64,000 bases of DNA from Pseudolabrys taiwanensis (lineage in GTDB: Bacteria > Pseudomonadota > Alphaproteobacteria > Rhizobiales > Xanthobacteraceae), in contig NZ_CP031417.1 in the NCBI RefSeq assembly GCF_003367395.1, positions 5,171,501 through 5,235,500 of the forward strand, written 5' to 3'. The first letter of the stretch is position 1. Each line of letters opens with the position of its first letter. Below, in pieces: positions 43,559 to 54,080 of this stretch. The position numbers and the translations under genes are program-made. Under the pieces are notes generated by a model. The model was not told where the DNA came from. It saw only the letters and a program-made list of their open reading frames with translations, and searched no databases.

Positions 43559-44344
43559 TCACGCCGAATCGTCGCCGCCGAAGTCGCCACCACCGAAATC
43601 ATCGCCGCTGGCATCGTCGCCATAGTCGTCGTTGTCGGGATTGCCGCCGAACAGACCCGCGGTCTGCTGATCGGACGAGCCGCCGCGGCTGCCGACATCG
43701 TTTAAGCCGGCGTCGCGCGCGAGATCGCTGTTCGCGGCGTTGCCGCCCCACGGCGAGGTATCCGAGGGCGTCGAGGCGAAGGCCTGTCCGCCATGGTGGC
43801 CGAACATCGATGAGATTGAATTGAGCAGCATGCTGCCGGCGATCACGCCCGCGGCCGAAGCCGCCGCCGTGCCGAGGAACGAACCGCCGCCGCCACCTGG
43901 CTGCGCTCCGTATCCCGGCTGCGCGCCGACGCCGGGCTGTGCGCCATAGCCCGGCTGTGCGTTGTAGCCCGGCGCGGGCTGGCTCTGGTACGTGCCGCCT
44001 TGATTCCACCGCTGATCCGGTCCGGGTCCGGCATCGCGGCCGAGCGGGACGCTGGGGACCGAACCGCGCGCGCGGCCGAGAAAAGCCTCGCGCATGCTAT
44101 CGAGGAAGCCGGCTCCCTGCTGCGGTTGCTCGCTTTCGCCGGAGAGCTCGCGGATGCGCGCATCGGCGCGCTTGAGTGCCTCGTCCTGCACCAAAACGGT
44201 CTGCACCAGCGCGTAGACCGCGTTCGGCGCGCGCCGGAGTCCTTCGATGATCGAATGCTCGGCGTCGGGATCGCGCGGCGCGGTCTCGAGCTTGGCGAGG
44301 CGATCGAAAAGATCGTCGACCAGTTGGCGTTCTTGCGGGGTCAT
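43559..44344 (-). CDS. DUF2076 family protein with GYGAQPG repeats
   Basis: The protein is 261 aa, with GGGAGGAAG upstream of the ATG at 44344. The N-terminal 65 residues are the DUF2076 helix pair (MTPQERQLVDDLFDRLAKLE, PNAVYALVQTVLVQDEALKRAD; shortened). A linker with five PGYGAQPG-like repeats (about 120-155) follows. A hydrophobic glycine-rich helix (LGTAAASAAGVIAGSMLLNS) and a long acidic tail with DDFGGGDFGGDDSA close the protein. DUF2076 proteins are described as periplasmic ligand-binding sensor-like, but the function is not established. The GYGAQP repeats suggest a flexible, prion-like linker. Confidence 0.88.
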   Translation of the reverse strand: MTPQERQLVDDLFDRLAKLETAPRDPDAEHSIIEGLRRAPNAVYALVQTVLVQDEALKRADARIRELSGESEQPQQGAGFLDSMREAFLGRARGSVPSVPLGRDAGPGPDQRWNQGGTYQSQPAPGYNAQPGYGAQPGVGAQPGYGAQPGGGGGSFLGTAAASAAGVIAGSMLLNSISSMFGHHGGQAFASTPSDTSPWGGNAANSDLARDAGLNDVGSRGGSSDQQTAGLFGGNPDNDDYGDDASGDDFGGGDFGGDDSA

Positions 44345-44380: not shown

Positions 44381-45244
44381 CTAGGCGGCGCCCCTCGCTT
44401 CGCCAGAGGGCTGCGCCAAGGTGACGCCCGATTCCGCGAGCACGTGCAGGAAAGCATCCGAATTGAAAAAGGCGAATTCGTGCTCGCGCAACGTCGTCAC
44501 CGGATCGAGGCTTTGTAAGGCCGAATCGACGAAGCCTGGATGACACATGATCAGGCCGCCATCCGGCAGGCCTCTGAGGAAGCGCGGGAAAATGCGCGAG
44601 AAGCGCGCCTTGGGGGTAAAGGCATAGGCGCCGGCGAAAGCCGGATTGGTGGTCAGCCCGTGGCGCGCGGCCTGCGATTTGAAGCCGAGGCTCAGCACGT
44701 CGAGGACCAGCGATTTCGGATCGTGCAGCGCGCGGCCGGCACGGACGCGGCCGCATTGCCGCACCCAGGCGTTGGGTGCGATCTCGCTCACCACCCTGAG
44801 GAAGGCGTTGCGCACCTGCGGCAGCAGATGCACGTGCTGATGGCCATCGACGAAATCGGGCATATGGCCGAAGGCGGACAGGAACGCCTGTAGTTGCGTG
44901 GCGATCTCGATCGTCAGCAGCTCGATGTCGAGCCGCCGTGTCATGGCGAGCCGCATCATGTCGTTGATCGGCGGGAAGGCGCCGCCGCGCAGCGGCGCAA
45001 AGCCGTTGCTCATCGGCTTGAACGGCGCGGTGAGGGTGACGTGCAGGCCGATGGCGGCGCGGGTCGTGCCGGCGTTGAGCATTTCCAGCGCATCGACTTC
45101 GTCGGCGCCGATATATGCCGCCGGCATCATCACCGACGTGGCGTTGAGCCGGCCGTTGAGGATGAGCTGGCGGATGGCGTCGTTGACGCCGGGCGCCATG
45201 CCGTAATCGTCGGCGCAGAGCCAGATCCGGCGGGTCGCGGTCAC
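44381..45244 (-). CDS. ChbG/HpnK (YdjC) family carbohydrate deacetylase
   Basis: The protein is 287 aa starting at a GTG one base after the stop of the glycosyltransferase gene. The metal motifs are ADDYGMAPGVNDAI near the N terminus, LHVTLTAPF, and DGHQHVHLLP. The final third has MCHPGFVD. Members remove acetyl groups from chitobiose-type sugars (ChbG) or act in hopanoid-linked clusters (HpnK). Together with the upstream glycosyltransferase and divergent GtrA gene it probably modifies a lipid-linked sugar at the membrane. Confidence 0.9.
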   Translation of the reverse strand: MTATRRIWLCADDYGMAPGVNDAIRQLILNGRLNATSVMMPAAYIGADEVDALEMLNAGTTRAAIGLHVTLTAPFKPMSNGFAPLRGGAFPPINDMMRLAMTRRLDIELLTIEIATQLQAFLSAFGHMPDFVDGHQHVHLLPQVRNAFLRVVSEIAPNAWVRQCGRVRAGRALHDPKSLVLDVLSLGFKSQAARHGLTTNPAFAGAYAFTPKARFSRIFPRFLRGLPDGGLIMCHPGFVDSALQSLDPVTTLREHEFAFFNSDAFLHVLAESGVTLAQPSGEARGAA

Positions 45245-45245
45245 G

Positions 45246-46289
45246 TTATTCCGCCACGTGCAAGGCCGACGGCTTATCCGTCTCGGTCTCGTCGGCGTGC
45301 TTGACGCTGTGTTCGGCGACGAAATAGACCGGCCGCGCTTTGATCTCGGACAGCATCTTGCCGATGTATTCGCCCAGGATGCCGATCATCAGAAGCTGCA
45401 CGCCGCCGATGATCATGATGCTGACGACCAGCGAGGGATAGCCGGGCACGTCTTTGCCGAACAGGATCGTCTCGAGCATGATCCAGATGCCGAAAAGAAG
45501 CGCGGTCGCCGCGAACAGCGCGCCGAGCAGGCTTGCGAGGCGGAGCGGCGCCACCGTGAACGAGGTCAGGCCCTCGATCGACAGGCCGATCAGCGTCCAG
45601 ACGTTCCAGGTCGTCTTGCCGTGCTCGCGCCGCGCCGGTTCGTAATCGACGCGCACCTGCCGGAAGCCGATCCAACTCGACAGGCCTTTGAAGAAACGGT
45701 TGCGCTCCGGCATCTGGCGCAGTGCCGCGGCCGCGCGCGCCGACAGCAGGCGGAAGTCGCCGGCGTCTTCCGGAATTTTCTGACGCTGGCCCCAGTTGAT
45801 CAGGTCGTAGAAGAACTTCACGCCGAGCGTGCGCAGCTTGGGCTCGCTCTCGCGGTGCGCCTTGGCGGTATAGACGACGTCGTAGCCATCATCGAGCCAG
45901 CGGGACACCAAGGTTTCGATCAGGCTCGGCGGATGCTGGCCGTCGCCGTCCATGAACATGACGGCGCCCAGGCGGGCATGGTCGAGGCCGGCGAGCAGAG
46001 CCGCTTCCTTGCCGAAATTGCGTGACAGCGAGACGACCTGAACGTCCGCCGCGGTGGCCGGCAGCGCCTGCGCCACCAGGTAGGTGTCGTCGCGGCTGCC
46101 GTCGTCCACATAGACGATCTCGACGGCGAGGCCGCGCTTGGCGTGCAGAAAACGCGCCACCTCGGAGATGCGCTCGTGCAGGGAGGGCAGTCCCTTGGAC
46201 TCGTTGAACACCGGCACGACGATGGACAGCCCCTGGGTGGCGCGCGTCTGCGCCGTCCGCGTGCTGGATCGTGTGGTTTGGGCCGTCAT
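45246..46289 (-). CDS. Membrane glycosyltransferase family 2 (GtrB/ArnC/DPM1-like)
   Basis: The protein is 347 aa. The catalytic GT-A domain (about 18-230) has VVPVFNESKGLP, VYVDDGSRDDT, the DxD-containing MFMDGDGQHPP and a downstream YEPARREHGKT. Two transmembrane helices at about 240-310 (LASLLGALFAATALLFGIWI, SLVVSIMIIGGVQLLMIG; shortened) place it in the polyprenyl-phosphate glycosyltransferase group (GtrB, ArnC, DPM1). It is expected to load a sugar onto undecaprenyl phosphate on the inner face. The divergent gtrA gene would supply the flippase. The next gene, a ChbG-type deacetylase, is one base away. Confidence 0.93.
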   Translation of the reverse strand: MTAQTTRSSTRTAQTRATQGLSIVVPVFNESKGLPSLHERISEVARFLHAKRGLAVEIVYVDDGSRDDTYLVAQALPATAADVQVVSLSRNFGKEAALLAGLDHARLGAVMFMDGDGQHPPSLIETLVSRWLDDGYDVVYTAKAHRESEPKLRTLGVKFFYDLINWGQRQKIPEDAGDFRLLSARAAAALRQMPERNRFFKGLSSWIGFRQVRVDYEPARREHGKTTWNVWTLIGLSIEGLTSFTVAPLRLASLLGALFAATALLFGIWIMLETILFGKDVPGYPSLVVSIMIIGGVQLLMIGILGEYIGKMLSEIKARPVYFVAEHSVKHADETETDKPSALHVAE

Positions 46290-46399: not shown

Positions 46400-46873
46400 A
46401 TGACCTTCAAGTCCCTACGAAACATCCGCGACCGATTGACCGAGGCTTGGCACGAGCGCGCCATCGTGCTCAAGGCGATCAGCTTTGCCTTTGTCGGCCT
46501 CATCAATTCGGCGATCGATTTCGCCATATTCTCGTTCGCCTACTACTATCTGGGGTTGCCGATCATCGTCGCCAATACGCTGGCTTGGATTGTGGCGGTG
46601 ACCGGCTCCTACGTGATGAATTCCACCATCACCTTTGCCGCCGAATCCGGGCGCAAACTGGGCTTCAGCCAGTACCTCGGCTTTGCCGCGTCGCAATTCG
46701 CCGGCTTCCTGGCCAACACGGCGACGGTCTGGTGTTTGGTGGAACTCGCCCATATCCCCGCCTGGGCGGCGAAAGTGGTCGCGATCGCGGTGAGCTTCGT
46801 GGTCAACTTCTCCCTGTCGCATTTCCTGGTGTTCCGCACCGAGAAGCCCAAGGCCGATCGCGGACAATCGTAA
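46400..46873 (+). CDS. GtrA family membrane protein
   Basis: The protein is 157 aa with four hydrophobic helices and the GtrA pattern: AISFAFVGLINSAIDFAIFS, ANTLAWIVAVTGSYVMNS, YLGFAASQFAGFLANTATVW, and AVSFVVNFSLSHFLVFR (shortened). GtrA proteins are thought to flip polyprenyl-phosphate-linked sugars across the membrane. It starts 110 bases from the divergent GT2 gene, so the pair shares a control region. Confidence 0.93.
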   Translation: MTFKSLRNIRDRLTEAWHERAIVLKAISFAFVGLINSAIDFAIFSFAYYYLGLPIIVANTLAWIVAVTGSYVMNSTITFAAESGRKLGFSQYLGFAASQFAGFLANTATVWCLVELAHIPAWAAKVVAIAVSFVVNFSLSHFLVFRTEKPKADRGQS

Positions 46874-46882
46874 CGACGCGCG

Positions 46883-48073
46883 TTAGGTCGGGGCGGGCCC
46901 GGTGTAGCGGGCGCGCGGGCGAATGATCGCGCCGCTCGCTTGTTGCTCCAGCGCATGTGCGATCCAGCCGGCCGTGCGCCCGACCGTGAAGAGCGCGAGC
47001 GCGGCCCCGTAGGGCAGTTGCGCCGCGCGCCGCAGCGACACTAGCGCGAAATCGACATTCGGCGTGTGTCCACCGATGGCGCCAATGGCGTCGATCAATG
47101 CGTTGCGGGTCTTGTCGGCGGGCAACAGGCGCAGCAGCGCGCGGCTGCGCGGATCGCCGTCCGGATAGAGCGGGTGGCCGAAGCCGGGCAGCTGATCGCC
47201 GCGCCGCAGCCGCTCACGCACCACGCGCGTTGCGTCGCCGACGCGATCGACTTCGTCGAACAGCATTTCAACGAGGCTCGTCGTGCCGCCGTGCAAGGGA
47301 CCCGACAGGGCGCCGAGACCGCCCGACAGGCACGCGCTCAAGGACGCGCCGGTCGATGCGATCACGCGTGCGGCGAAGGCCGAGGCATTGAGTTCGTGAT
47401 CGGCGCACAGCACCAGCGCGGCGCGGATCAATTCCGCCTTGCGTGGGCCGGCGCGCCACGCCTGCGCCAGATGCCGGTGGATCGGCAGCGTGCTTGGCTC
47501 GGTCGCGGTCGCCGCGGCGGCCATCGCGCGAAGGAGACCGGCGGCATCCGTCCACAAACTTTGCGCCGCATGCCGCCATGTCACGGTGGTGCCGATCCCG
47601 GCCAAGGGCAGCAGCGCCGTGCAACGCTCGGTCGGCAAAGCGTCGCGCATTTGTTTGCCGACGATGGGCCAGCTCGCCGACGGGCGCGGCGCCGGCGCGG
47701 CGAAAGGATCGGTGTCGCCGCAGTCCCACAGCAAGCGCGCGACCGCCTCGAGGCTCTGGTCGTGCGCGAGCTTGGCCGCGTCCTGGCCGCGGTAATACAG
47801 TTTGCCGCCGTCGATCAGCGCGATGCGCGAGTCGAGCGCCGGCAATCCCCAATCGAGCGTCGTCGCGGCGATGACGGCGGGCTTGCGTCCGCGTGCTTTC
47901 GCCTTGGCGAGCCGCGCGATGTCGTCGGCGCTGTAGAGCCGGCGGCGCGGGTCGTCCGGATCGGCGTGCGTCTGCACGAGATGGCGGCTGACATAGGCGT
48001 ACAAAGTCGCGCGCGTGATGCCGAGCCGGGATGCCGCGCTGGCGGCGTCGATGAGGTTCCGTGTCATGGCCAT
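46883..48073 (-). CDS. Citrate synthase family protein with N-terminal MerR-like DNA-binding domain
   Basis: The protein is 396 aa. Residues 5-60 form a helix-turn-helix (IDAASAASRLGITRATLYAYVSR, shortened) with a MerR-like wing RRRLYSADDIARL. A citrate synthase domain follows (about 70-396). All main catalytic features remain: His226 in ADHELNAS, His261 in LHGG, His300 in GFGHPLY, Asp341 in NVDF, and Arg366 and RPRARY. This suggests that it either still makes citrate or binds the substrates as a sensor. It is divergent, with an 81-base gap containing two palindromes, from a second citrate synthase gene. It may therefore be a metabolite-sensing regulator, or a bifunctional enzyme. Neither has been shown here. 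Confidence 0.9.
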   Translation of the reverse strand: MAMTRNLIDAASAASRLGITRATLYAYVSRHLVQTHADPDDPRRRLYSADDIARLAKAKARGRKPAVIAATTLDWGLPALDSRIALIDGGKLYYRGQDAAKLAHDQSLEAVARLLWDCGDTDPFAAPAPRPSASWPIVGKQMRDALPTERCTALLPLAGIGTTVTWRHAAQSLWTDAAGLLRAMAAAATATEPSTLPIHRHLAQAWRAGPRKAELIRAALVLCADHELNASAFAARVIASTGASLSACLSGGLGALSGPLHGGTTSLVEMLFDEVDRVGDATRVVRERLRRGDQLPGFGHPLYPDGDPRSRALLRLLPADKTRNALIDAIGAIGGHTPNVDFALVSLRRAAQLPYGAALALFTVGRTAGWIAHALEQQASGAIIRPRARYTGPAPT

Positions 48074-48154
48074 AGATTGATTATATCAATCAATATTGAC
48101 GATTTATGAGATTACCACAATCTTCGCAGCGAGGTCATTCATCGAGGTATCGCC
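48074..48154. promoter_or_regulatory. Divergent promoter with palindromic operator candidates between citrate synthase genes
   Basis: This 81-base gap is A/T-rich. It contains TTGAT, TAT, ATCAA at 48077-48089 and the perfect palindrome CAATATTG at 48091-48098. Two palindromes so close together between a gene for a HTH-citrate synthase and its neighbour suggest an autoregulatory operator. A GAGG sequence upstream of 48155 is the likely ribosome-binding site. Confidence 0.55.
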
Positions 48155-49258
48155 ATGTCGCAAACCAACGCCGAAGTCAGAACCCAATCCGGTCTGGACA
48201 ACGTCATCGCCGCCGAAACCGTCCTGAGCCATGTCGATGGCGCCGCCGGCCGGTTGATCGTGCGCGGCTTCGATCTGGAAGAAGTCGCGGGCTACAGCGT
48301 CGAGGCGATGCTGGCGCTGCTATGGGACGGTTTCGTCGACCATGCCTGCACCGAACAGGACATCCGCGTCGCGCTCGGCAAAGCGCGGGTGGAGGCTTTC
48401 GCAACGCTCGGCAAAATCCAGCCGGTCGCCGCATTGTCCGAAGTCGAAGAGTTGCGCCTGTTATTGTCGAGGCTCCCCGACGCTAGCCCGACGCCGCATC
48501 ATTTGCTCGCGGTCGCCGCGACCGCGGTGTTCACCGCCGCCATCGTGCGACGCCGGCGCGGCGAGACGCCCATCGCCCCCGACGCGAAGCTTGGGCATGC
48601 GGAGGATTTCCTGCGCATGATCCGCGGTACATCGGTTTCCAAAGCGCATGCCCGTGCCTTGGAAGCCTATCTCGTCACCGTGGCCGATCATGGTCTCAAT
48701 GCGTCGACCTTCACCGCGCGTGTGATCGCTTCGACGCGCGCCGGTCTGTTGTCCGCTGTGGTCGGCGCGTTGTGCGCGTTGAAGGGGCCGTTGCATGGCG
48801 GTGCGCCGGGGCCGGTGCTCGATATGCTGGATGCGATCGGCAGCGAAGCGAACATTCGGCCCTGGCTCGACGATGCGCTGGCCGACGGCGAACGGTTGAT
48901 GGGCTTCGGCCACCGCGTCTACCGCGTGCGGGATCCGCGCGCCGACGTGCTCAAGCGGGTAGCGTCGGATCTGCGCGAGGGCGGACGCATCCGCTTCGCC
49001 GAGAAGGTGGAGGCGGTGGCGCTGGAAGCGCTGGCGGTGCACAAGGCAAACCGCAAGCTCGAAACGAACGTGGAGTTCTACACCGCGCTGGTGCTGGAGG
49101 CGCTCGGACTGCCGCGCACGACCTTCACCAATGTGTTCGCCGTCGGCCGCGTCGCCGGCTGGACCGCGCACATCCTGGAGCAGGAACAGAGCGGCCGCAT
49201 GATCCGGCCGCAATCGCGCTATGTCGGGCCGAGCCCGAAGCAACCGCTGGCCGCTTAG
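48155..49258 (+). CDS. Citrate synthase/methylcitrate synthase family protein
   Basis: The protein is 367 aa. Catalytic features are His179 in VADHGLNAS, His214 in LHGGAP and His253 in GFGHRVY. At the position of the usual catalytic Asp it has Glu307 (NVEFYTA), which differs from the Asp of the best known enzymes and of the neighbouring protein; this may be normal for its subgroup. It condenses acetyl-CoA or propionyl-CoA with oxaloacetate; the branch (citrate or 2-methylcitrate) is unclear. No prpB or prpD gene is adjacent. It is divergent from the HTH-citrate synthase gene and its 3' end overlaps the convergent hisG by four bases. Confidence 0.92.
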
Positions 49259-50235
49259 GCAGCCGGCAGCTTGCTCTCGAGCTTGGCGTAAAGCGGATTG
49301 TCCTTGGAGAACACGTAACCGAGCTCGGCGACCGACACCGCTTCGGCGCCGCGCTCGCGCATGAAGCTCGTCAGCGCGTAGACCTGCGCGGGCGGGCAGT
49401 GCAGCGTCAGCATGCCCGACGACGTCGGGCCGCCGAACGGCGTCTCGACGCCGTACTTCTGCTTGGCCTCTTCGACCAATTTGCCGTCGCAGGCGGCAAA
49501 GCGCGCGCGCACTTCACGGAAGGCTTTGGCGCGCGCTTGCGCCGTGATGCGGTCGAGGATGACGCGGGCGAGGTCGCGCTGCTCGCTGGTCCATTCCGCC
49601 TTGCGCGCGGCGACCAGATTGGCCTGCGAGCGCAGGATCACGCCGTCGTCGACGATCTTGAGCGCATTGGCCGCGAGCGTCGTGCCGGTCGTCGTGATGT
49701 CGACGATCAGTTCGGCGGTGCCGGCGGCCGGCGCGCCTTCGGTCGCACCGGCGCTCTCGACGATACGATAGTCGATGACGCCATGCGTCGAGAAGAAGTC
49801 GCGCGTGAGGTTGATGTACTTCGTCGCCACCCGCATCTTGCGGCCGTGGTGATGACGGAACGCGGTGGCAACGTCGTCGATGTCGGCCATGGTGCGCACG
49901 TCGATCCAGGCCTGCGGTACGGCGACGACGACATTGGCGAAGCCGAAGCCGAGCCCCTCGATCAGCACCACACGCTCGTCGGCGTCGGGCATCTGCTCGC
50001 GCACGAGGTCTTCGCCGGTGACGCCGAGATGCACGGCGCCGGCGCCGAGCTGTGCGGTGATTTCGGACGCGGACAGATAGGCGACTTCGACGCCGTCGAG
50101 ACCGGCGACCGCGCCGCGATAATCGCGGGCGCCGCGCGGCTTGACGAGATTGAGGCCGGAGCGCGCGAAGAAGGCTTCGGCGTTTTCCTGCAGCCGGCCC
50201 TTGGCCGGCACGGCGATGATGAGCGGCGCGCTCAT
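49255..50235 (-). CDS. hisG: ATP phosphoribosyltransferase (HisG)
   Basis: The protein is 326 aa from the ATG at 50235. It carries out the first step of histidine biosynthesis, joining ATP and PRPP. Family features are [18 protein letters not shown], the [12 protein letters not shown] loop, [10 protein letters not shown] and the PRPP-binding [16 protein letters not shown] (shortened). The C-terminal 90 residues look like the regulatory domain, the pattern seen in rhizobial HisG that also use HisZ. The start overlaps the stop of hisZ (ATGA), so the subunits are translationally coupled. Confidence 0.96.
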
Positions 50236-51386
50236 TGGACGCCTCCATAGACGGCGAGGCGTTCGATCCAAACTGCGAAACCGACGGCGGGGATCGGCGA
50301 GGGGGCGCCGAGGCGCGTCAGCAGGCCGTCGTAGCGGCCGCCGGCGACCAGCGGATCGCCGGTGCGCGCAGGATCGGTCAGCTCGAACACGAAGCCGGTG
50401 TAATAGTCGAAGCCGCGCCCGAACGACGTCGAGAGCTGCACGCGCTTGAGGTCGATGCCGCGCGCTGCAAGAAAGCCGGTGCGGCTCTCGAACAGGTCGA
50501 GTGCCGGCGACAGTTCGCCCAGCATGCCGGCTTCGGCGGCGAGTGCGCGCAACTCGACGGCCGCTTCATCCGGATCGCCGCCGATGGCGAGGAAGCGCTC
50601 GATCAGCGAGCGCACGTCGCGCGGCAGCTTGGTCGATGCGCCGAGGGCCGATTGTTCGAGAAAGCGGTCGGCGATTTCGGCCACCGAGCGGCCGCCGACG
50701 GCACTGATGCCGGCGATCGACAGCAGATCGGTGACGAGCGCGTGCGCGCCTTTCGGGTCGGAACCGGCAAGCGCGGCGAGCACGCCCTGATATTCCGGCC
50801 GCGCATTGTTGCCGCCGAGCATGAGGCGCTCGAGGTCCTGCGCCAGGTTGGTCTTGCGGTTGAAGTCCTTCACCAGCCGCCGCTTCCAGGCCGCCGGCAA
50901 ATCGAGCGCCGCGATCAGTGCGGCGAAGAGGGCGACGTCGCCGATCTGGATCGAAGGCGCCGCGAGGCCGTAATGCGCGGTCGCTTCCAATCCGAGCGAG
51001 AGCATCTCGGCGTCCGCCGCGGCGGTGTCGGCCCGCCCGAAGCTTTCGATGCCGGCCTGAAGAAACTCGGCAGGATCGTCGGCGCGATGTCGGAAGACCG
51101 GGCCGAGATAGCAGAACGCGGCGGGCTGACCGGCAGCCGGCGAGGCGAGGTAATCGCGCGACACCGGAATGGTGAGGTCGGGGCGCAGACAGAATTCGGC
51201 GCCGCCTGGCGCGGTCGTCAGGTACATGCGCTTGCGGATGTCCTCGCCCGAAAGGTCGAGGAAGGGCTCCGCCGGCTGCAGGATGGCAGGCGTGACCCTG
51301 GCATAGCCGGCACGCTCGTAGGAGGCGACCAGCGCCTCCGCCCGCGTTTCCGGTCCCGATCCCGGTACTCCTACGCTCCCATCCAT
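50232..51386 (-). CDS. hisZ: ATP phosphoribosyltransferase regulatory subunit (HisZ)
   Basis: The protein is 384 aa from the ATG at 51386; a GTG at 51437 would extend it by 17 residues with no support. HisZ is a histidyl-tRNA synthetase-like protein without aminoacylation activity that activates HisG. Motif 2-like [31 protein letters not shown] and [16 protein letters not shown] are seen (shortened). It lies upstream of hisG with an ATGA overlap. In related genomes hisS-hisZ-hisG are adjacent; here hisS is separated by an NTF2-like gene on the opposite strand. Confidence 0.95.
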
Positions 51387-51656
51387 CGCACGTCCCAACT
51401 GCAGACTCGTCTGATCGCCGCCCTTTTGGGCGTCCACTTCCCGCCGCCCTTTAGCACGGGCGCCTTAAGGATTCGACGCCGTTCGCCGCGCGGCCTTAAC
51501 GGCTTTCTGAGCCAAATACCTGCCGTCGTTAATAAATTTTTGCCGGCGGCCGCGGCGAACCGATGCCCGTGATCGGTAATCAGCTGCCGTGTCCTCTTGA
51601 GCGTAATAAAATTTCAATGCAACTTGGGTCTACTGCGGTAAGTGGGGAGGCAGCCC

Positions 51657-52121
51657 ATGGGCTACGCCGTATCGCGAGAGGTCGCCGAGACCTTTTTCAA
51701 GGTCTACGCCGTGCGCGACATGGTCAGGGTGGCACCGTTCCTGAGGGACGACGTGCTTTGGACCATCAGCGGCCCCGTCGACCTGCTGCCGTTCTGCGGC
51801 ACCCGCCGCGGCAAAGCCGCGGTGATCGATCTGCTCGGCCGGACAGTGCCGACCGTGCTGCGCGTATTCAGGTTCACCACTGAGTTGTTGCTGGTCGATG
51901 GCGATCGCGTCGCTTCGCTGAACCGCCTCTCGGCGCGGGGTACGGCGGACGGCCGTACCATCAGCTACCGGGTCGCGCACTTCATGCGCTTCGCAGACGA
52001 CAAGGTGGCGGAGAATTTTACCTTCATTGACAGCTTCGACGCGGTGGAGCAGGTGCTCGGCCACACCTCGCCGGTCCACGACACGCCCTCCCTGCTCGGG
52101 AACGACATTGTCGCGCTCTGA
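51657..52121 (+). CDS. NTF2-like/SnoaL-type small protein
   Basis: The protein is 154 aa. The ATG at 51657 is preceded by GGGGAGG with six-base spacing, which settles the start. The pattern SREVAETFFKVYAVRDMVRVAPFLRDDVLWTISG (shortened), PFCGTRRGKAAVIDLL, VDGDRVASLNRLSARGT and VAHFMRFADDKVAENFTFIDSFDAVEQ is the typical cone-shaped NTF2 fold with a helix-rich start and curved sheet. Such proteins act as isomerases, dehydratases or binding proteins, and the function here is unknown. It sits on the opposite strand between hisS and hisZ. Confidence 0.85.
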   Translation: MGYAVSREVAETFFKVYAVRDMVRVAPFLRDDVLWTISGPVDLLPFCGTRRGKAAVIDLLGRTVPTVLRVFRFTTELLLVDGDRVASLNRLSARGTADGRTISYRVAHFMRFADDKVAENFTFIDSFDAVEQVLGHTSPVHDTPSLLGNDIVAL

Positions 52122-52124
52122 GGA

Positions 52125-52388
52125 TTACAGCGGCTGAGGCTCAGGCACGATTTCGGCGGGTGGGGCGCTTTTGCCCGGCGCCGCCTGTTCGGCGGGCGGC
52201 GCCTCCTCGGGCACCGTCGACGGAGCGACCTTCGGCTTCACATAGCGGCAACCGGTGTGCCGTTGCATGGCCTGAGCAACCGGGTAGCACCAACGTTCGG
52301 CCATCACGCACCTCGACGCATTCTTGTTCTGGATTGCACAAGAAATGCGCGGACGGTCGTCCCGGTTCCACGCATGCGACACCGGCAT
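52125..52388 (-). CDS. Possible small Cys-containing protein (uncertain)
   Basis: This possible 87-aa product has a Cys-bearing stretch (CAIQNKNASRCVMAERWCYPV and HTGCRYVKP) followed by an acidic Pro/Ala/Glu tail (EEAPPAEQAAPG). It resembles short secreted rhizobial proteins but has no clear signal peptide or ribosome-binding site. A second frame over the same bases is also open, so the coding frame is not certain. It would be immediately downstream of the hisS 3' end on the same strand. Confidence 0.3.
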   Translation of the reverse strand: MPVSHAWNRDDRPRISCAIQNKNASRCVMAERWCYPVAQAMQRHTGCRYVKPKVAPSTVPEEAPPAEQAAPGKSAPPAEIVPEPQPL

Positions 52389-52477
52389 TCGTGGTGACGA
52401 ACGTCGTGCGCGTGCGCCGTTAGAGCCGCTTGGCGTTAACGCCGTGTGTCGTTGCGACGACGGTTTGATGGCACGGT

Positions 52478-53968
52478 TTACGAAAGTCCGTGGCGAGCCA
52501 GCACCTGCCGCACCGCGTCGACAAGCTTGTCCTCGGCGACGGCGAACTGCGCTTCGGCCTGCTTCTTGAGATAGTCGTCGCGTTCTTTGGACAGCCCGGC
52601 GATCTCGGCGCCGAGGATAAGATCCTTGATCTGCACCTCGCCGCGCATTTTTTCATCGCCGCCTTGAATGACGGCACAAGGCGAGCCCCGCTTGTCGGCA
52701 TATTTGAGTTGGTTGCCGAAGTTCTTCGGGTTGCCGAGATAGAGTTCGGCGCGGATGCCGGCGCCGCGCAACTGCGACACCATGCGCTGATAGTCGGCGA
52801 CGCGGTCGCGGTCGAACACGGTGACGACCACGGGCCCGGCGTCCGGCTTCGACGAAATCTTGCCGAGCGCGGTGAGGGCGGCCTGCAGGCGCGAGACGCC
52901 GATGGAAAAGCCGGTAGCCGGCACAGGCTCGCCGCGGAAGCGCGAGACGAGACCGTCGTAACGGCCGCCGCCGCCGACCGAGCCGAAGCGCATCGGCCGG
53001 CCCTTCTCGTCCTTGATCTCGAAGGTGAGCTCCACCTCGTAGACCGGACCGGTGTAATATTCGAGACCGCGCACCACCGACGGGTCGATGCGGATGCGAC
53101 CGTCGTCATAGCCGGCTGCGCTCACCAGTTCGCCGATCGAACGCAACTCGTTCACACCGTCGAGGCCGGCATTGGAGCCGGACACCAGCGCTTCCATCTG
53201 GTCGAGCATCTGCGGCACGTTGTGCGTTTCGACGCGCAGAAAACCGAGCACGGTGTCGCAGGCCTTCTCGTCGAGGCCCGCGCCCTTGGTGACGTCGCCG
53301 CTCTCGTCCTTGCGGCCGGGACCGAGCAGATCGCGCACGCCGTCGAGGCCGAGGCGGTCGAGCTTGTCGATGGCGCGCAGCACGGTGAGACGGCGGCCGG
53401 CATTGGCGTCGCCGCCGAGCTCGATGGCTTCGAGGATGCCGTCGAGCACCTTGCGGTTGGATACCTTCACCACGTAATCGCCGCGCGGAATGCCGAGCGC
53501 CTCGATGGTGTCGGAGGCGAGCATGCACATCTCGGCGTCGGCGGCCATGGTCGCGGCGCCGACCGTGTCGGCGTCGAATTGCATGAACTGGCGGAAACGG
53601 CCCGGGCCCGGCTTCTCGTTGCGGAACACCCAGCCGAAGCGATAGCTGCGGTAGGGCAGCGCCAGGAACTGATAGTTCTGCGCGACGTAGCGCGCGAGCG
53701 GCGCGGTCAGGTCGTAGCGCAGCGACAGCCACTGCTCGTCGTCGTCCTTGAACGAGAACACGCCTTCGTTCGGCCGGTCGAGGTCCGGCAGGAACTTGCC
53801 GAGCGCATCGGTGTATTCGATCGCCGGGGTCTCCACCGGCTCGAAGCCGAAGCGCTCGAACGTCGTGCGGATGGTCTCGACCATCGTACGCGTCGCGGCG
53901 ATTTCGGCCGGGCCGCGGTCGGCGAGGCCATGCGGCAGGCGGGCTTTGAGCTTGTGGGGTTTCGCCAT
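52478..53968 (-). CDS. hisS: Histidyl-tRNA synthetase
   Basis: The protein is 496 aa from the ATG at 53968. It charges tRNA-His. Class II features are [16 protein letters not shown] (motif 1 region), [20 protein letters not shown] (motif 2, shortened), the histidine-binding [12 protein letters not shown] and [17 protein letters not shown], and a C-terminal anticodon-binding domain ([21 protein letters not shown], shortened). A 30-residue insert around 210-235 with [12 protein letters not shown] is typical of the alphaproteobacterial form. The ATG at 53968 is chosen over a GTG at 53980. Confidence 0.97.
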
Positions 53969-54080
53969 AGTCGCGTGCACAATGTGTAGGGATGTTGATT
54001 GTCAACGGCGTGGTAGCAGCCGTTTGTCGCTTTGTCATTATTGGCGAAAGCGGCTAAGCCGTTGCGCAGCCTAGTCCCGC

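Follow-up and report, generated by a model that had tools for sequence, protein, structure and literature searches.

A helix-turn-helix/citrate synthase fusion predicted to act as a one-component regulator through a conserved 25-bp operator

The 64-kb stretch of DNA that we analyzed (the window) encodes a protein, HTH-CS, in which a helix-turn-helix head is joined to a citrate synthase domain, and which faces the gene of a second citrate synthase, CS2. Judging from comparative sequence evidence, it is quite probable that HTH-CS is a one-component regulator, with a MerR-like head and a citrate synthase sensor, that binds a 25-bp operator and controls its partner gene as well as its own. The original prediction had already cast the protein as a regulator of its neighbor and of itself, and this role is now strongly supported, on comparative grounds, by the conservation of the element, the recovery of the gene pair by a search on DNA only, and the presence of the element at a distant partner gene.

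The HTH-CS protein and the divergent gene pair

The HTH-CS ORF encodes 396 amino acids on the minus strand (46883-48073) and was assigned as a helix-turn-helix/citrate synthase fusion, and proposed regulator, from the ORF listing, Pfam, and full-length protein matches. CS2, the proposed target gene, is divergent from it (48155-49258, plus strand, 367 amino acids). The 81-bp gap between them (48074-48154) and both ORFs lie where they had been placed by the original prediction. The DNA-binding domain (HTH and wing, residues ~8-66; 47876-48052, minus strand) was delimited with Pfam and alignments, one of which has 36 sequences, and contains a nearly invariant TLYAYVSR; within it, residues 13-59 match MerR_1 with 23.2 bits for a cut-off of 21.6. 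The citrate synthase domain (residues 75-387; 46913-47851, minus strand) rests on a residue alignment and on a Pfam match to Citrate_synt (PF00285; E 1.8e-62) that spans positions 3-357 of the 357 of the profile. Both matches are above cut-off, which bears out, on a profile basis, the claim of an HTH joined to a full citrate synthase. CS2 matches Citrate_synt with an E of 2e-97 and also passes the cut-off (332 bits) of the citrate synthase family NF009005 (PRK12350), with 432.7 bits; HTH-CS fails it with 191.4 bits. Only 15 residues separate the end of MerR_1 (59) from the start of the citrate synthase match (75) in HTH-CS, as judged from the Pfam limits and the sequence, which leaves no apparent room for a long coiled-coil dimerization helix after the HTH. 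In citrate synthase structures, the domain is itself a dimerization part.

Similar proteins occur in many bacteria. For each of two fusion queries, the best 120 protein matches listed covered 94-100% of the query, and 7918 and 7867 of the 8000 scored candidates passed an E of 0.001, although the HTH is not necessarily present in all of them. The 130 N-terminal residues of HTH-CS had matches in 83 of 72,556 plasmid records. To describe the family we used 53 aligned HTH-CS sequences (the window, 17 of the 120 listed proteins, and 35 of the 80 loci presented below; the row of L117, taken from an ORF on the wrong strand, was left out), among which MerR_1 was matched in 41.

The mean majority conservation is 0.68 in the HTH head (residues 8-66) and 0.71 in the C-terminal half of the enzyme. 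The head is thus about as conserved as the enzyme half, which is compatible with a sensor and with a live enzyme alike. This similarity also suits another reading, in which HTH-CS is a spare citrate synthase whose HTH-like head has some other role, while the operator belongs to an unrelated regulator. The window protein is barely above the MerR_1 cut-off, and the sources that name such proteins nearly always call them citrate synthase, citrate synthase family protein, or citrate/2-methylcitrate synthase. We nevertheless consider a spare enzyme improbable, since HTH_17 is matched in 48 of the 53 members, HTH-CS is the constant gene across the partner types seen, and the site described below is rare (one exact copy in a 5.6-Mb genome) and tracks HTH-CS.

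Outside the pair, the neighboring genes in the window show nothing unusual. CS2 adjoins hisG (identified by Pfam), followed by hisZ/hisS-like ORFs recognized by eye (49255-53980), and on the other side lie genes of GtrA (46400-46873), a family 2 glycosyltransferase (45246-46289), a YdjC-like protein (44381-45244), and DUF2076 (43559-44344).

A retained active site

Eight residues (H226, H261, H300, R309, D341, R366, R385, and R387) are invariant in the 53 HTH-CS sequences. We take H261, H300, and D341 to be the catalytic His and Asp residues, and the invariant set presumably holds the two catalytic His, the catalytic Asp, and oxaloacetate-binding His and Arg. The claim that HTH-CS keeps its catalytic His and Asp therefore agrees with the alignment. 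The retention of these residues makes it plausible, on sequence grounds, that the pocket senses acetyl-CoA, oxaloacetate, or a homolog.

HTH-CS might also be a trigger enzyme, functional as a (methyl)citrate synthase or as a related enzyme of the Claisen type, with its regulation coupled to turnover or substrate occupancy. This fits the invariance of the eight active-site residues, and the motifs of HTH-CS around the two His, the Asp, and the Arg line up with those of the housekeeping citrate synthase encoded in the genome of the window. Against it stands the R-x-x-K/R motif after the second catalytic His, which reads RVYK in the housekeeping enzyme and RVYR in CS2 and is replaced by PLYP in HTH-CS; position 304 is P in 47 of the 53 sequences, R in 5, and A in 1. 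The basic residue lost there is one that we assume to contact CoA. On balance a trigger enzyme seems to us rather unlikely. A broader version for the whole family, equally speculative, would have a catalytically competent active site serve as the sensor, so that condensation flux or occupancy sets how much is made both of the regulator and of one swappable acyl-CoA enzyme (CS2, a CoA-transferase III, or an HMGL-like synthase).

CS2 has a Glu (in NVEF) at the position of the catalytic Asp of HTH-CS and of the housekeeping enzyme. This Glu is shared in the alignment by 2c6x, presumably Bacillus subtilis CitA.

A 25-bp element between the two genes

Two palindromes had been noticed in the gap. 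The first, TTGATTATATCAA, stands at 48077-48089 as reported, whereas the second is the 10-mer TCAATATTGA at 48090-48099 and not the segment 48091-48098 given originally. Both were read directly from the sequence, and both are parts of one conserved 25-bp element at 48076-48100, with the consensus GTCAAYnTTGAYT-n6-RTCAAY. Conservation, pattern searches, and a position weight matrix (PWM) lead us to propose this element, GTCAATATTGATTGATATAATCAAT on the minus strand, as the operator.

The PWM was trained on 80 rows, the window among them, and gives 50.8 at the window site, far above chance. In the gap, two overlapping opposite-strand matches reach 3.5 and 0.4; the remainder of the window reaches at best -10.0 on either strand. 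The 5.6-Mb genome of the window has one exact element and a single other site within two mismatches (L119). Hence, the system looks local, and no wide regulon was seen in this genome at up to two mismatches.

The element across genomes

We gathered 80 loci (L005-L084) by protein search and anchored their upstream regions on TCAAYnTTGA, a motif picked by eye, ahead of the PWM, whose letters are conserved by construction. The element was found upstream of HTH-CS in 79 of these loci, in addition to the window, and is absent at L038; conservation of the palindromes in orthologous loci was one of the points on which the original prediction had been staked beforehand, and on this point it held. The letters outside the anchor are also conserved: a G precedes it in 76 of 80 rows, and each position of the TCAA at +19 to +22 is kept in at least 78 of 80. 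The anchor sits 22-77 bp before the inferred start of HTH-CS. Over the 80 loci, the highest second PWM score was 3.4 (716,733 bases; second site in the top six for 78 of the 80).

Searching 289 alphaproteobacterial genomes, that of the window included, with the DNA pattern only, we identified 15 sites, one in each of 15 genomes; the reversed pattern gave none in the same genomes. Of these, 12 are flanked by an HTH-CS gene and a divergent CS2-like gene, in one case (L132) at only 40% identity. The other three (L122, L130, and L133) are inside ORFs of genomes where no HTH-CS was matched, and are thus probably chance sites. Using the 130 N-terminal residues as a query, we found HTH-CS in 34 of the 289 genomes (G243 being marginal and G207 in two pieces), including all 12 genomes with a site at the gene pair. 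Two of these 12 loci, L125 and L126, we judged to be the training loci L044 and L039 from identical match identity and element. The co-occurrence of site and HTH-CS has a Fisher p of 3.5e-10, kinship being ignored.

The half-sites of the palindrome, TTGAT/ATCAA, are those of FNR, and one might thus have expected an FNR/FixK-type site under global control. The FNR half-sites are spaced by 4 bp, and those of the element by a conserved 7 bp. Moreover, a global regulator would have many sites, and the exact element occurs once in the genome of the window and once per genome in the 15. We therefore rejected this candidate, which we hold to be very improbable, on half-site spacing and single copy.

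Upstream of the 30 HTH-CS loci from the alphaproteobacterial draw, the PWM reached at least 15.2 in 27, with shuffled sequences at 7.1 or less. When the window and two training loci are set aside, the count is 24 of 27. Among the three low-scoring loci, L160 is at a contig edge, and L152 and L163 (~34% identity) come from one family. These two lack the operator; hence, not every HTH-CS member fits. Two genomes of the same order as the window have the site (L085 and L086), and L216 has a weak one, with a PWM score of 10.3. A draw of 398 genomes over the phylum gave six sites, three of them at HTH-CS pairs (the window, L131, and L199) and one (L198) preceding a second HTH-CS by 2.9 kb; the remaining two (L197 and L200) are inside ORFs of genomes where no HTH-CS was matched. 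Taken together, the sites outside reading frames show the element accompanying HTH-CS or its presumed target, as expected of a regulator's operator.

Closer to the window, the 35 genomes searched from its genus had no matched intact fusion, and one of them has a decayed copy (L096, G028:C67) that is interrupted by an in-frame stop and lacks the element. This suggests that HTH-CS is sporadic in the genus, and we rejected vertical inheritance within it on the same grounds.

Partner genes

The gene opposite HTH-CS is not always the same, whereas the element is kept with few exceptions. A divergent CS2-like gene is next to it in 35 of the 80 loci, and a CoA-transferase III gene in 40 (34 identified by Pfam and six by tblastn). 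The Pfam scan took 35 neighbors from the 45 loci without CS2, the 35th being the DinB gene of L032. In the remaining loci, the partner copy is truncated (L041), cut by the contig end (L071), or missing (L038 and L075). No such partner stands beside the HTH-CS of L032 or of L075, and the element of L075 is damaged.

Further partners came from outside this set. In three loci of one family (L154, L156, and L157), a DUF2332-like gene (by Pfam on L154 and L156) lies opposite HTH-CS and the element is kept. DUF2332 is a family without known function, and the sharing of an element with HTH-CS is a lead to its role. On a Deinococcus plasmid (L165, 2880-3060), HTH-CS and an HMGL-like gene flank the element, whose spacer is shorter there by one base; a transposase gene is nearby. 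The CS2 pair is present on plasmid At of Agrobacterium fabrum C58 (ATU_RS25365/ATU_RS25370).

We plotted the partner types on a quickly built tree of 114 protein rows, from which L137 and L139 were dropped as duplicates and in which the decayed L096 was not used. The tree has several long branches, and 38 of its 111 inner branches are weakly supported. Having or lacking CS2 changes nine times along it and CoA-transferase six times, for shuffled means of 38.4 and 34.8; the starred branches force three and four of these changes, respectively. Once the 13 rows lacking all three named partner types are set aside, switches between these types total four. Partners are thus distributed by clade but have been exchanged a few times, the element being retained. 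Apart from the divergent pair, there was no sign of a wider conserved operon, as no gene cluster occurred in more than 11 of the 80 loci (ORFs of at least 120 amino acids, up to 4 kb on each side). The set of partners, i.e., CS2, CoA-transferase, HMGL-like protein, and the 2-hydroxyacid dehydrogenase described below, gives a hint of acyl-CoA and 2-oxo/hydroxy acid metabolism.

Sites at genes away from HTH-CS

In 26 genomes from the 80-locus set we looked for sites beyond the locus; 25 of them, all but that of L075, have a site with at most one mismatch. Stella vacuolata (L038) has a single matched HTH-CS, with neither element nor partner beside it. Its only site within one mismatch precedes an intact CoA-transferase gene ~1.3 Mb from HTH-CS, and this CoA-transferase is the sole homolog in the genome at an E of 1e-60. 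A similar arrangement was found in Herbaspirillum ASV7 (L041), where the CoA-transferase gene beside HTH-CS is a truncated remnant and a second site precedes an intact one on another contig. The element at a distant intact CoA-transferase gene in these two genomes implies action in trans.

Second sites also precede a CoA-transferase paralog (37%) in Trinickia (L063), and a second HTH-CS in Acidovorax CF316 and Pandoraea ASV26. In genome G669, the first HTH-CS has a weak site and is partnered by a CoA-transferase. A second HTH-CS paralog lies 3' of SDR and MFS genes (L215, G669:C3:428000-436000), and two sites stand between the SDR-MFS stretch leading to it and a D-2-hydroxyacid dehydrogenase gene. 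These operator-like sites opposite the dehydrogenase gene possibly reflect an enlarged catabolic regulon.

Promoters and a possible mechanism

A plain scan of the gap for -35/-10 promoters found nothing, for HTH-CS or for CS2, and the candidates that follow were read from the sequence. A putative extended -10 of HTH-CS, TGATATAAT, is inside the operator (48080-48088, minus strand), and with it the HTH-CS message would start at or near the ATG. The possible CS2 promoter (48096-48123, plus strand) would have a -35, TTGACG, at 48096-48101, overlapping the operator, and a candidate -10, CAATCT, at 48118-48123. Across loci, the best partner -10 matches cluster at spacers of 16-17 (22 of 36 CS2 loci and 25 of 44 others, with ties broken towards 17), yet the mean -10 match over the 80 loci is no better with a 16-bp spacer than with one of 14 bp (or, in one group, 21 bp).

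The overlap of the operator with both possible promoters favors repression, which a ligand bound in the citrate synthase pocket would lift. HTH-CS would be the protein bound to the operator, its binding would repress both genes, and the binding would be switched by a 2-oxo acid (e.g., oxaloacetate), an acyl-CoA, or both, held in the retained active site. The partner enzyme would then be made as its substrate builds up.

HTH-CS may instead activate its partner, from beside the -35 or in the manner of MerR. Regulators with MerR-type heads are often activators, and the element includes the TTGAC of the possible partner -35. In the MerR family, the operator lies inside the 19-20 bp spacer of the target promoter. 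At our loci, the column counts single out no -10 position for such a geometry, and neither they nor the promoter scan located a partner -10. Activation is therefore a sizeable possibility, which we do not prefer to repression.

Relation to known systems

PutA, BirA, and NadR each combine an enzyme and an HTH transcription factor in one polypeptide; their catalytic folds are unrelated, and none uses citrate synthase. An enzyme-derived one-component regulator is thus a known idea, of which HTH-CS, as read from its sequence, would be a new, citrate synthase version. The original prediction had cited no characterized example of this design, and our search of the open-licence PMC literature, by title and start of abstract, likewise found, among the matches listed, no fusion of the HTH-CS type described as a regulator. 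Type II citrate synthases (2c6x, NF009005) have their fold and active-site residues in common with HTH-CS, but no HTH head, and HTH-CS is below the NF009005 cut-off.

HTH-CS resembles the MerR family, as outlined in PMC9909328, in its N-terminal HTH and wing, which match MerR_1/HTH_17, and in forming a proposed autoregulated unit; it differs in leaving no room for the coiled-coil helix and in having a citrate synthase domain as sensor. BldC, too, is MerR-like in its head and lacks the classical coiled coil, but, from the account in PMC5859096, it is a protein of 68 residues with no effector or enzyme domain.

In Caulobacter, according to the main text of PMC7083601, the citrate synthase CitA is a moonlighting protein whose cell-cycle role is independent of its activity. 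It resembles HTH-CS as a citrate synthase with a regulatory role and differs in acting on the cell cycle. The same text describes a further pair of citrate synthase genes, citB/citC, whose locus tags follow each other, and reports that CitB complemented an Escherichia coli gltA deletion and CitC did not (PMC7083601). If CitC, a putative HTH-CS, belongs to the family, its failure to complement argues against the trigger enzyme. The term "helix-turn-helix" is absent from this main text, and its single mention of "DNA-binding" concerns CtrA (PMC7083601). That citB/citC is the same pair as CS2/HTH-CS is our guess.

If HTH-CS is a regulator, so are "citrate synthase" proteins of many Alpha- and Betaproteobacteria, of a record titled Pseudomonas, and of a Deinococcus plasmid, and their metabolic annotation changes. 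The family would then be direct evidence that the fold of a central-metabolism enzyme can serve in transcriptional sensing, with an exact sequence at hand for the proposed operator. Membership in HTH-CS, if it holds for Caulobacter CitC, may also explain why some additional citrate synthases fail to complement. The name "Citrate synthase family protein" also appears once in PMC12542777, in an expression table.
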